Below, piece by piece: positions 31,601 through 61,525 of a stretch of DNA of 64,000 nucleotides. This DNA is from Epibacterium ulvae. Its GTDB lineage: Bacteria; Pseudomonadota; Alphaproteobacteria; Rhodobacterales; Rhodobacteraceae. Below the pieces are notes generated by a model, which worked only from the letters and a program-made list of their open reading frames with translations, searched no databases and was not told the origin of the DNA. How positions within the stretch are numbered: the first letter of the stretch is position 1; every line of letters starts with the position of its first letter. Location: the NCBI RefSeq assembly GCF_018678075.1, contig NZ_JAHHIR010000022.1, positions 1 to 64,000 on the forward strand. Reading direction: 5' to 3'. A program made the position numbers and the translations under genes.

Positions 31601-33196
31601 ATGGCTCCCAAAGTACTCGTCTCCGATAAACTGTCTGAAACCGCCGTCCAGATCTTCCGTGATCGTGGCATCGACGTGGACTTCCTGCCCGAGCTGGGCA
31701 AAGACAAAGATAAACTGGCCGAAGTGATCGGTCAATACGACGGTCTGGCGATCCGCTCCGCTACCAAAGTGACCCCGACCATTCTGGAAGCCGCCACCAA
31801 CCTCAAAGTTGTTGGCCGCGCCGGTATCGGCACCGATAACGTGGACAAAGAAGCGTCCTCGAAAAAAGGTGTGATCGTCATGAACACGCCGTTTGGCAAC
31901 ATGATCACCACAGCCGAACATGCGATTGCGATGATGTTCGCCGTTGCGCGCCAGATCCCGGAAGCGTCGGAATCGACCCATGCCGGTAAATGGGAAAAGT
32001 CCAAATTCATGGGCGTTGAGCTGACCAACAAAACGCTGGGCGTTATTGGTGCGGGCAACATCGGTGGCATCGTCTGTGATCGCGCCCGTGGTCTGAAAAT
32101 GAAAGTTGTCGCGTTCGACCCCTTCCTGTCGGAAGAGAAGGCCGAAAAGATGCAGGTCGAAAAGGTTGAGCTGGACGAGCTGCTGACGCGCGCGGACTTC
32201 ATCACGCTGCACGTGCCTTTCACTGAAGGCACCAAGAACATCCTCTCCGCTGAAAACCTGGCCAAAACCAAAAAAGGCGTGCGGATCATCAACTGTGCCC
32301 GCGGCGGTCTGGTTGACGAAGAAGCGCTGGCTGAGCTGTTGAAATCTGGCCATGTTGCCGGTGCGGCGTTTGACGTGTTCAAAGAAGAGCCCGCCAAAGA
32401 GAACGCGCTGTTCAACCTGCCCAACGTTGTCTGCACCCCGCACCTGGGCGCCGCAACCACCGAAGCGCAAGAAAACGTGGCGCTGCAAGTTGCCGAGCAG
32501 ATGTCCAACTATCTACTGACCGGCGCTGTTGAAAACGCGCTGAACATGCCATCTGTGACCGCCGAAGAAGCCAAAGTCATGGGGCCGTGGATCAAACTGG
32601 CCGATCACTTGGGTGCATTTGCCGGTCAGATGACCGACGAGCCCATCGAAGCGATCAACATCTGCTACGATGGTGTTGTCTCTGACATGAATCTCGAAGC
32701 GCTGAATTGCTCGGTGATCGCGGGCATCCTGAAAAAGGCAAACCCGGACGTGAACATGGTTTCCGCACCGGTCATTGCAAAAGAGCGTGGCATTCAGATC
32801 TCGACCACCACTCAGGACAAGACCGGCTCGTTTGATGGCTACATCAAAGTCACCGTTGTGACCTCCAAGCGTGAACGTTCGGTTGCGGGCACTGTGTTCT
32901 CGGATGGCAAGCCTCGTTTCATCCAGATCAAAGGCATCAATATCGACGCCGAAGTTGGCGCCAACATGCTCTACACCACCAACAAAGACGTGCCGGGCAT
33001 CATCGGGACATTGGGTGGCACCCTGGGCGGCATGGACGTGAACATCGCGAACTTTACCCTGGGTCGTTCCGATGTTGGCGGCGAAGCGATTGCTCTGCTT
33101 TATGTCGACGGCCCGGTTTCTGTTGAAGCCCGCGCCAAGCTGGCAGAGACCGGCATGTTCACTCAGGTGAAGCCGCTGGCATTCGACGTTGCCTAA
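31601..33196 (+). CDS. serA: D-3-phosphoglycerate dehydrogenase
   Basis: A 531-residue NAD-dependent enzyme that begins serine synthesis. The nucleotide-binding motif 'LGVIGAGNIGGIVCDRARGLKM' is followed by 'NCARGGLVDEEAL' and the catalytic histidine region 'VCTPHLGAATTEAQ'. The C-terminal part contains the intervening ASB-like domain and an ACT domain ('NMLYTTNKDVPGIIGTLGGTL'), the long SerA form, which may be regulated by serine. The start at 31601 matches the family. It is the second gene of the serC-serA operon. Confidence 0.96.
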   Translation: MAPKVLVSDKLSETAVQIFRDRGIDVDFLPELGKDKDKLAEVIGQYDGLAIRSATKVTPTILEAATNLKVVGRAGIGTDNVDKEASSKKGVIVMNTPFGNMITTAEHAIAMMFAVARQIPEASESTHAGKWEKSKFMGVELTNKTLGVIGAGNIGGIVCDRARGLKMKVVAFDPFLSEEKAEKMQVEKVELDELLTRADFITLHVPFTEGTKNILSAENLAKTKKGVRIINCARGGLVDEEALAELLKSGHVAGAAFDVFKEEPAKENALFNLPNVVCTPHLGAATTEAQENVALQVAEQMSNYLLTGAVENALNMPSVTAEEAKVMGPWIKLADHLGAFAGQMTDEPIEAINICYDGVVSDMNLEALNCSVIAGILKKANPDVNMVSAPVIAKERGIQISTTTQDKTGSFDGYIKVTVVTSKRERSVAGTVFSDGKPRFIQIKGINIDAEVGANMLYTTNKDVPGIIGTLGGTLGGMDVNIANFTLGRSDVGGEAIALLYVDGPVSVEARAKLAETGMFTQVKPLAFDVA

Positions 33197-33222
33197 CGCA
33201 GCCGCTTGGAATGCTTAATTCA

Positions 33223-33250
33223 AAGGCCACCCTTTGGGGTGGTCTTTTTC
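33223..33250 (+). terminator. Rho-independent terminator after serA
   Basis: AAGGCCACCC-TTTG-GGGTGGTCTT followed by TTT, 27 nt after the stop codon. Confidence 0.88.
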
Positions 33251-60183: not shown

Positions 60184-60603
60184 TTAGTCGTCTTGAACCT
60201 TACCGCGCAGGTTTTTGACCTCACTCCGTTGCTTCTTACCGGTGAGACGGCGTTGCACGGATCCCCGGGTCGGCTTAGTGGCGATCCGCCGTTTTGGCAC
60301 GACCAACGCTTTTTGGATCAGCTCTGTCAGACGTTCACGGGCCAGATCGCGGTTGCGCGCCTGGCTGCGGGTTTCATCGCAAAACAGGATCAACGCGCCT
60401 TCCTTGGTCCAGCGGCGACCGGCCAGACGGCGCAGACGTTTCTTGACCGCAGGGGGTAGGGACGGTGAGCGTTCGGCCTCAAATCGCAGTTCGACCGCAG
60501 TCGAAACCTTGTTCACGTTTTGCCCGCCGGGGCCTGACGCGCGGATGAACTGTTCCGTCAGTTCCCAGTCGTGAATGGTGATTTGATCGTTGATTTGCAG
60601 CAT
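60184..60603 (-). CDS. arfB: Alternative ribosome-rescue factor ArfB
   Basis: A 139-residue peptidyl-tRNA hydrolase that releases stalled ribosomes. The catalytic GGQ lies in 'FIRASGPGGQNVNKVSTAVEL' (about residues 25-30). The basic C-terminal tail that enters the empty mRNA channel is present ('KRRIATKPTRGSVQRRL', 'KKQRSEVKNLRGK'). This separates it from true release factors. Upstream of the P1 peptidase gene on the same strand. Confidence 0.93.
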   Translation of the reverse strand: MLQINDQITIHDWELTEQFIRASGPGGQNVNKVSTAVELRFEAERSPSLPPAVKKRLRRLAGRRWTKEGALILFCDETRSQARNRDLARERLTELIQKALVVPKRRIATKPTRGSVQRRLTGKKQRSEVKNLRGKVQDD

Positions 60604-60654
60604 AAACGGGGTCCTTTGACCGGTTTATGCCGTTAACAAGCGGCCGTGGCAAAG

Positions 60655-60699
60655 GGCAAAACAAAAGGGCTGTTCGAAATTGCGCAACGAACAGCCCTT
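60655..60699 (-). terminator. Rho-independent terminator of the candidate small RNA
   Basis: On the minus strand AAGGGCTGTTCG-11 nt-CGAACAGCCCTT, a 12-bp stem, is followed by TTGTTTT. It is more than 50 nt upstream of arfB and about 200 nt past the transporter gene stop. Confidence 0.88.
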
Positions 60700-60850
60700 C
60701 TTGAGTATTCGGAGGTGCGCCGGTTAGGCGGTCACCAATTTAGGATTTGACGCCGCTAAGGACTGCCTCAGCTTTGTGCCTCCCAAACTGTTCCGACACC
60801 GATCTCCAAGTTCCCAATAGACACTAGAGCACCTCCTTTCTGAATGTTAC
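60655..60850 (-). ncRNA. Candidate independent structured small RNA
   Basis: The region has the parts of a stand-alone RNA gene on the minus strand. A TTGACA -35 element sits at complement(60883..60888); the -10 is unclear. GGAGGTGC (complement 60829-60836) pairs with GCACCTCC (complement 60711-60718) as an 8-bp closing stem around 126 nt. Inside are a 10-bp helix (complement 60781-60790 with 60736-60745) and a 7-bp hairpin with a CAGT loop (complement 60755-60772). An intrinsic terminator follows at 60655-60699. The rod-like form with a wide asymmetric bubble recalls 6S RNA, but I cannot assign a family. A short GTG frame with an SD inside it is an alternative reading. Confidence 0.6.
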
Positions 60851-60882
60851 GCGTATCTTTAGCGTTGCACAGAATGGGTAGA

Positions 60883-60888
60883 TGTCAA
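60883..60888 (-). promoter_or_regulatory. -35 element (TTGACA) of the candidate small RNA
   Basis: A perfect TTGACA lies between the stop of the transporter gene (60896) and the start of the structured RNA. A clear -10 at 16-18 nt is not seen; TAAAGAT about 21 nt downstream is the best partial match. Confidence 0.45.
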
Positions 60889-60895
60889 AACAAAA

Positions 60896-61525
60896 TCATG
60901 TGGAACGTACCGTAATCCGCCCCACGATGATGCGGAAAGGAACAAGCGCGATCAGCGCCAGCGTCAGTTTTACGCACCAATCGGCAAAGGCAAGCGAGAT
61001 CCAAAGCGGCAGCATTTCGCCTCCGCCCATAAAGGGCGCGGCCTCCCAGGACCAATTGATCGCGGCGTCCGCATTGGCACCAAACACCGTGACCGAGGCT
61101 GAGAATGCGATGGTAAAGAAGAGCGCAGTGTCCAAAGCAGACCCCACCAAGGTCGAGATCAGCGGCGCGCGCCACCAGACACCCGCGTTGAACCGGTTGA
61201 ACACGGCAACATCTGTCAGCTGCGCGATCAGGAACGCCGTTCCGGATGCAACTGCGATGCGCAGGGGAACGGCGGGGCCAAATTCCAACATGATCTGACT
61301 GCCAATCAGCGAACAAATCACCCCGGTCACAAACCCCGCCAGCACCACTTTGCGCGCGGCCGAAACGCCGTAGACGCGGTTCATCACATCCGTCACCAGA
61401 AAGGCAAGCGGATAGGTGAACGCCCCCCATGTGAGCCAGCTCCCAAACAGGAATTGAACCAGAATATTGGAGGCAACAACGATGGCAGCCATAGCGGCGA
61501 TGCCGGGCAGATAGGTGCGTGACAT
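60896..61525 (-). CDS. Queuosine precursor transporter (VUT/YhhQ family)
   Basis: A 209-residue inner-membrane protein with about six hydrophobic segments. 'YPLAFLVTDVMNRVYGVSAARKVV' and 'IAQLTDVAVFNRF' are diagnostic of the YhhQ/QPTR family, which imports preQ0/preQ1-type bases for tRNA queuosine synthesis. The ATG at 61525 (MSRTYLPG) is chosen; an earlier ATG seven codons upstream is possible. No preQ1 riboswitch was recognised in the 114-nt leader. Confidence 0.88.
   Translation of the reverse strand: MSRTYLPGIAAMAAIVVASNILVQFLFGSWLTWGAFTYPLAFLVTDVMNRVYGVSAARKVVLAGFVTGVICSLIGSQIMLEFGPAVPLRIAVASGTAFLIAQLTDVAVFNRFNAGVWWRAPLISTLVGSALDTALFFTIAFSASVTVFGANADAAINWSWEAAPFMGGGEMLPLWISLAFADWCVKLTLALIALVPFRIIVGRITVRST

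Follow-up and report, generated by a model that had tools for sequence, protein, structure and literature searches.

A conserved, folded small-RNA gene of Rhodobacteraceae with an 18-codon frame, probably a divergent relative of CC2171

CC2171, the described RNA closest to the element reported here, is typed by Rfam as an sRNA gene and figures as a row of a table in the Rfam 15 paper (PMC11701678). Its relative MH_s33 of Mesorhizobium huakuii is recorded by RNA-seq as a 215-nt product (PMC5596092), and BjsR3 of Bradyrhizobium is said to have a terminator common with Rhodobacterales (PMC5082802); BjsR3 may or may not be related to our element. The partial texts returned by a literature search give no function for CC2171 and no description of the element in Rhodobacteraceae, although publication elsewhere is possible. 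The passages of PMC11005374, PMC7566282 and PMC5521070 found by term search hold nothing on it, and the parts covered of an S. meliloti small-proteome paper (PMC10117765) do not mention it.

Single features of the element recur in other known systems. Trp-type leader-peptide attenuators likewise join a short frame, stems and a terminator, but the element differs from them in having no consistent downstream gene outside its family and no support for the antiterminator that was tested. Spot 42/SpfP and RNAIII, like Pos19 of Rhodobacter and rnTrpL of Sinorhizobium, are dual-function sRNAs and resemble the element in uniting a small frame and a structured part in one RNA; in the element, by contrast, the frame start is paired with the 3' half. 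In type I toxin mRNAs of the hok kind, fold-back pairing between the 5' and 3' ends of the message closes the start site, as the 5'/3' pairing of the element is predicted to do; a toxin mRNA was considered on account of this fold-back and dropped, as the peptide is short and, judged from its letters, hydrophilic. The kinship with 6S RNA raised in the initial annotation can be set aside, the Rfam search returning no 6S match at gathering in the whole window and none at E up to 10 in 60300-61200; the long rod with its internal bubble is indeed alike, but the element carries a frame and a Shine-Dalgarno.

The window (the whole 64,000-nt stretch of Epibacterium ulvae DNA that was analysed) carries the element on its minus strand, in the 292 nt between the end of yhhQ at 60896 and the start of arfB at 60603. 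The upstream yhhQ belongs to PF02592, of the queuosine-precursor transporter type, and the downstream arfB to PF00472. Elsewhere the window holds a serC leader RNA (Rfam RF00517; 30334-30385, plus strand, 73.6 bits). Judged from sequence, and with slightly less than even confidence, we take the element to be a free-standing gene for an RNA of about 190 nt, folded and carrying a mini-frame, on a branch of the CC2171 type: a small mRNA or dual-function RNA whose start would be shut at rest and opened by ribosome capture.

Fold and covariation of the element

The initial annotation had read here a dedicated small RNA gene built from a TTGACA box, an 8-bp closing stem, a 10-bp helix, a 7-bp hairpin and a 12-bp terminator, and each of these is found in place on the minus strand (Table 1). 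The gene call itself stands too, as promoter box and terminator are present, the stems covary and copies are conserved. TTGA occurs within -90 to -40 in 93 of 129 Rhodobacteraceae loci, compared with 24 of 129 after one shuffle each. The terminator arms (60688-60699 and 60665-60676) form a perfect 12 bp, followed by TTGTTTTG, and in the 78-sequence family alignment 96.6% of terminator cells are paired, with double changes in 10 of the 12 pairs. A simple promoter/terminator scan listed neither the promoter nor the terminator of the element, the latter because its 11-nt loop exceeds the scan's 8-nt limit.

Table 1. Features of the element, by position in the window
Feature	Positions	Strand	Basis
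-35-like box TTGACA	60883..60888	-	sequence, with TTGA enrichment across family loci
Presumed -10, ACGCTA (weak)	60860..60865	-	placed by position, 17 nt from the -35
Very long Shine-Dalgarno block AGAAAGGAGGTG	60830..60841	-	AGGAGGTG invariant in 78 aligned family sequences
18-codon GTG frame MSIGNLEIGVGTVWEAQS, stop TGA	60768..60824	-	length and stop kept across the family
Stem P1, 5' arm GGAGGTGC (Shine-Dalgarno)	60829..60836	-	88.6% of cells paired, changes mostly one-sided
Stem P1, 3' arm GCACCTCC (anti-Shine-Dalgarno)	60711..60718	-	pairing across the family alignment
Stem P0, 5' arm TTGGG (codons 3-4)	60813..60817	-	covaries with 60701-60705
Stem P0, 3' arm CTCAA, directly before the terminator	60701..60705	-	covariation; position as the CC2171 closing stem
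Stem P1b, 5' arm TCGG (codons 10-11)	60793..60796	-	95.2% of cells paired, double changes in 3/4 pairs
Stem P1b, 3' arm CCGG	60720..60723	-	same alignment as the P1b 5' arm
Stem P2, 5' arm CAGTTTGGGA (codons 12-15)	60781..60790	-	77.2% of cells paired, double changes in 7/10 pairs
Stem P2, 3' arm TCCTAAATTG	60736..60745	-	P2 is 10 bp with two G-U
Stop-codon hairpin GCTGAGG/CCTTAGC, loop CAGT	60755..60772	-	89.9% of cells paired, double changes in 5/7 pairs
Intrinsic terminator (12-bp stem 60665-60699, U-rich tail about 60655-60664)	60655..60699	-	covariation

The 194-nt stretch 60660-60853 is predicted to fold at -72.0 kcal/mol (z -3.62), none of 200 shuffles being equally stable. Adding 47 nt upstream and 20 nt downstream weakens this signal to z -1.98, a stability reached by 7 of 200 shuffles. 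It is conservation across genera that places the element beyond chance. The family alignment (A2) comprises 78 of the first 80 of 110 suitable elements, omitting L050 and L043 (23-codon frame). In it P1, P1b, P2, the stop hairpin and the terminator together have 89% of cells paired and double changes in 26 of 41 pairs, and their covariation score is 0.301 against 0.186 shuffled and at most 0.108 with slid partners; for P0, doubly changed in all 5 of its pairs, it is 0.412 against 0.229 shuffled and at most 0.237 slid, the shuffle counts overstating significance as related sequences are non-independent. The covariance test that the initial annotation had proposed thus comes out in favour of the stems.

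P1 is the closing stem, 8 bp with an outer span of 126 nt, in which the Shine-Dalgarno pairs with a CACCUCC segment. Its support comes mainly from one-sided changes because its Shine-Dalgarno arm hardly varies. Of 39 cases with G or C as the base next to that arm, 32 have C or G opposite; of 71 cases with A there, 63 have C opposite, which counts against P1. As P0 and P1 cross, both can form only as a pseudoknot or by turns. Across the family the Shine-Dalgarno pairs with the post-stop region at a mean score of 20.2 against 14.9 shuffled, 58% of 129 loci lying above the 95th percentile. Outside the family such masking is weak, at 17.0 against 14.2 within the frame (26% of 112 copies above the 95th percentile) and 14.3 against 13.3 for the region after the frame (7% of 112).

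The long Shine-Dalgarno and the 18-codon frame

The Shine-Dalgarno block is the most conserved part of the element in all families, and we take its complementarity to the end of the 16S rRNA (3') to extend well past the CCUCC core. In the source genome GAAAGGAGGTGNTC has exactly one site, at this element, and four further sites with one mismatch; 41 genomes of the class hold 19 exact occurrences, 11 of them on RF01867 matches. These counts seem to omit rRNA copies, since a search for the 16S gene in the analysed genomes found none.

The frame that follows is exactly 18 codons long in 137 of 144 placed family loci and starts with GTG in 139 and TTG in 5, the 144 (of 146; L023 and L055 were unplaced) counting the window's own copy twice. 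Seven copies (L043, L268, L271, L317, L320, L321 and L335) have frames of 17 or of 20-25 codons. Of 141 distinct frames, 134 have a stop as codon 19 (TGA in 54, TAG in 52 and TAA in 28). TGG is seen there once in 141, against an expectation of 21.4 under independent variation of the three bases. That the stop type drifts yet TGG is nearly absent indicates that termination itself is kept, and not only the surrounding hairpin.

Conservation of the residues is less even. Codons 2-12 change in a coding-like manner in frame 0 only (mean BLOSUM 1.12 against -0.10 +/- 0.53), frames 1 and 2 falling below the null; this signal (z 2.3) is weak, because z is already 1.5 for a post-stop control stretch read in that frame. 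For codons 13-18 z is -0.1, so constraint seems to fall more on where the frame stops than on its last residues. Codon 2 (TCT/TCG/TCA) and codon 11 (GGA/GGG) drift synonymously. Codon 12 is ACA in 139 of 141 distinct frames although four-fold degenerate, which points to RNA constraint, and between families the peptides are hardly alike. The initial annotation had offered the tiny GTG frame as an alternative to an sRNA, to be recognised by coding-type conservation. The frame is there, and codons 2-12 and the kept stop do show such conservation, but codons 13-18 do not, and the either/or fails because the frame belongs to the gene. The choice between sRNA and small frame can therefore be a false one.

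These data bear on an ordinary small mRNA, in which the 18-residue peptide is what matters and the stems only tune or protect the message. Such an mRNA would fit the kept frame and start, the coding-like change of codons 2-12 and the synonymous drift, as well as a Caulobacter ribosome-profiling study that reports two earlier ncRNAs, unnamed in the available passages, to be translated (PMC4117421). However, the weakness of the coding signal beside its control, the frozen codon 12 and the divergence of the peptide between families speak against it, and we regard it as possible but unlikely.

Distribution and kinship with CC2171

The initial annotation recognised no family for the element. The Rfam search gave, besides the missing 6S, one telling sub-threshold match, to CC2171 (RF01867; 29.8 bits, E 2.7e-4 in the 901 nt 60300-61200, curated cut-off 75), so that the family appears to be CC2171-like. 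Matches to ctRNA_p42d and mir-889 were rejected, as they cover little but the terminator. Among 18 same-genus genomes the best RF01867 score is 34.1 bits, also below the cut-off, and this search finds the element with its long Shine-Dalgarno and 18-codon frame in 15; in the other three, one of them 67% complete, the best RF01867 match lacks the motif. A DNA search within the genus has matches in just 6 of the 18.

A covariance model, R1, built from 14 same-genus copies (alignment A1, near-copies L016 and L004 omitted), matches 224 of 248 Rhodobacteraceae genomes, one per genus, at E up to 0.01. In these genome surveys a few R1 and R2 matches at the weak end may be due to chance. Outside the family R1 gives many short, terminator-only matches; 63 non-family genomes have a match at E up to 0.001, and in 27 a match lies on an RF01867 match. 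Run across 289 genomes of the class, RF01867 itself has matches at E up to 0.01 in 69, of which 9 exceed the cut-off, and a pattern scan of the named genomes yields at least 120 stretches. Among the matches listed are Sphingomonas, Bosea, Methylobacterium, Microvirga, Brevundimonas, Azospirillum, Skermanella and a Rhizobium bin. One genome (G276) has two full-length CC2171-like elements (C1:805104 and C1:2921849). The copy of the Rhizobium bin has DNA relatives on large secondary replicons of Methylobacterium, Azospirillum and Skermanella (7 records), with no listed gene beneath. The window element has no DNA match in the plasmid collection, and the surroundings (2.5 kb each way) of the closest named YhhQ there, that of Pseudorhodobacter turbinis of the Rhodobacterales (64.6%), hold no R1 match. 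One copy (L148), with the same 22-residue frame as L070, sits in a record titled Candidatus Kuenenia, which is not an alphaproteobacterium; the contig is probably mis-binned.

What copies outside the family have in common is a long Shine-Dalgarno together with a short frame that starts with GTG or ATG. A script found their terminators in 85 of 112 and missed them in 27. Of the 112 frames, drawn from the RF01867 model and a first-codon pattern as for alignment A3, 97% are 17-30 codons long; shuffling lowers this share to 19%, and for the other two frames it is 12% and 21%. Stems that reach the first codons recur with other letters, examples being TCATTGTC/GACAATGG, ATGAGATT/AATCTCAT and CATGAAT/ATTCATG. 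In A3, which holds 33 of the 34 other alphaproteobacterial copies listed (L168, with a 14-codon frame, was omitted), P0 onto codons 2-5 has 92% of cells paired and scores 0.245 against 0.090, a count biased to P0 as 15 rows came through the RF01867 model, which contains the stem, and 18 through a pattern that fixes the first codons.

A second model, R2, made from these 33 copies and no member of the window's family, matches the element at 39.8 bits (E 1.3e-9 in the window; E 8.2e-8 and the only match in the genome), much of this score coming from the Shine-Dalgarno/start block. It also matches all 40 family loci given to it (of 100 fetched), at 33 to 69 bits. Of 385 genomes of the class, 104 have an R2 match at E up to 0.001. 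Another R2 match in the window, at 33113-33249 on the plus strand (13.6 bits, E 0.011, first 23 model positions missing), is probably chance. Because seven of the 40 family loci reach 60-69 bits, beyond the Shine-Dalgarno block, we call the element, on the sequence evidence, a divergent relative of CC2171 and not a member of RF01867 as curated.

The likeness to CC2171 extends to the 5' block AACA..GAAAGGAGGUGNUC..GUGUCU, the long Shine-Dalgarno, a GGGCC-type terminator and a similar length. In both RNAs the first codons also pair, as a closing stem, with the segment directly ahead of the terminator, in the same position with other letters: CAUUGUC/GACAAUG in CC2171, and as P0 TTGGG/CTCAA in the window and often AGAAAG/CTTTC elsewhere in the family. 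To this plan the window's family, unlike CC2171, adds the Shine-Dalgarno/anti-Shine-Dalgarno stem, P2 and the stop-codon hairpin, and its frame is fixed at 18 codons.

Ribosome capture, arfB and other readings

The opening by ribosome capture in our preferred reading is inferred from this layout. In the resting RNA the Shine-Dalgarno would be paired with CACCUCC and the early codons with the pre-terminator segment, and the start would be shut; the great length of the Shine-Dalgarno may let a 30S subunit outcompete the fold. The frame runs along the 5' strand of the rod, the Shine-Dalgarno lying in P1, codons 3-4 in P0, codons 12-15 in P2 and the stop in the apical hairpin, and a ribosome covering the 18 codons would melt this strand and halt in the apical hairpin, short of the 3' half. 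A halt before the 3' strand would explain why the stop position is kept despite drifting last residues. The C-rich anti-Shine-Dalgarno strand, once freed, could pair with the start sites of other mRNAs, and the RNA would thereby couple a trans-acting RNA, perhaps also a peptide, to the supply of initiating ribosomes. The weak coding signal of codons 2-12, which a pure version of this ribosome-position model does not need, counts against it.

A bolder form, which we think unlikely, would make the element a class-wide RNA sensor of ribosome supply, in which the long Shine-Dalgarno captures free 30S, the frame only sets the length of the run, and occupancy switches the RNA from a shut P0+P1 pseudoknot to an open state, its anti-Shine-Dalgarno strand then damping translation elsewhere. 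If true, much of Alphaproteobacteria would possess, in RNA form, a counterpart of ribosome-supply regulation that has been overlooked so far because its frame is too short to annotate. Alternatively the RNA could be a non-translated decoy or store that binds 30S through its long complement to the 16S 3' end, the frame being a by-product. The conservation of the Shine-Dalgarno block above all other parts and its rarity in genomes would suit a decoy, but stop position and frame length are constrained only in the frame of the start, and no 16S gene that would show the extended complement was found in the analysed genomes; we think this quite unlikely.

Synteny at first favoured a leader-peptide attenuator of the ribosome-rescue gene arfB, with translation of the mini-frame choosing between terminator and read-through. 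Upstream of the element stands yhhQ in 121 of the 129 family loci, and downstream, on the same strand, arfB in 112. The arfB start lies at a median distance of 206.5 nt from the leader GTG and, in the 101 loci where a simple finder placed both, at a median of 47 nt after the terminator. arfB-less loci, other families and a failed antiterminator test have since weakened this reading, which we now consider improbable. Outside the family no downstream gene is consistent: a tblastn search with the window proteins at 1e-3 found neither arfB nor yhhQ in the flanks of 34 distinct places (42 loci, of which 8 were fetched twice), and the neighbours there differ and often face the opposite way by a mechanical longest-frame call. 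Within the family, 16 loci have more than 1.3 kb of downstream DNA without arfB, and 15 of these keep the 18-codon frame. The one candidate antiterminator tested, post-stop GGCAGYCCT with the 5' arm of the terminator, is 74.5% paired against 74.1% for shuffled columns, and the distance from leader GTG to arfB varies from 162 to 1003 nt. A weak hint of a promoter of its own for arfB (T in 44% at -12 and A in 51% at -11 of the ATG, 106 loci) also counts against attenuation. From this weak sign of a promoter near the ATG arfB (window 60604 on) is perhaps leaderless; an upstream purine excess at -10 to -8 may instead mark a Shine-Dalgarno.

With no arfB found at the 34 places outside the family and the frame kept at most arfB-less loci, the element would seem to be a gene standing on its own that came to sit ahead of arfB in Rhodobacteraceae. 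At one same-genus locus (L013) it lies without yhhQ and arfB alongside, with the 18-codon frame kept.

The gene is matched in 224 of 248 sampled genera of the family and, in recognisable form, in 104 of 385 sampled genomes of the class, and its only named relative, CC2171, is an sRNA in Rfam. The combination of a rare, very long Shine-Dalgarno, a mini-frame of fixed length and a fold that would shut the start makes a testable proposal, namely that the shape of this RNA may be set by ribosome capture.
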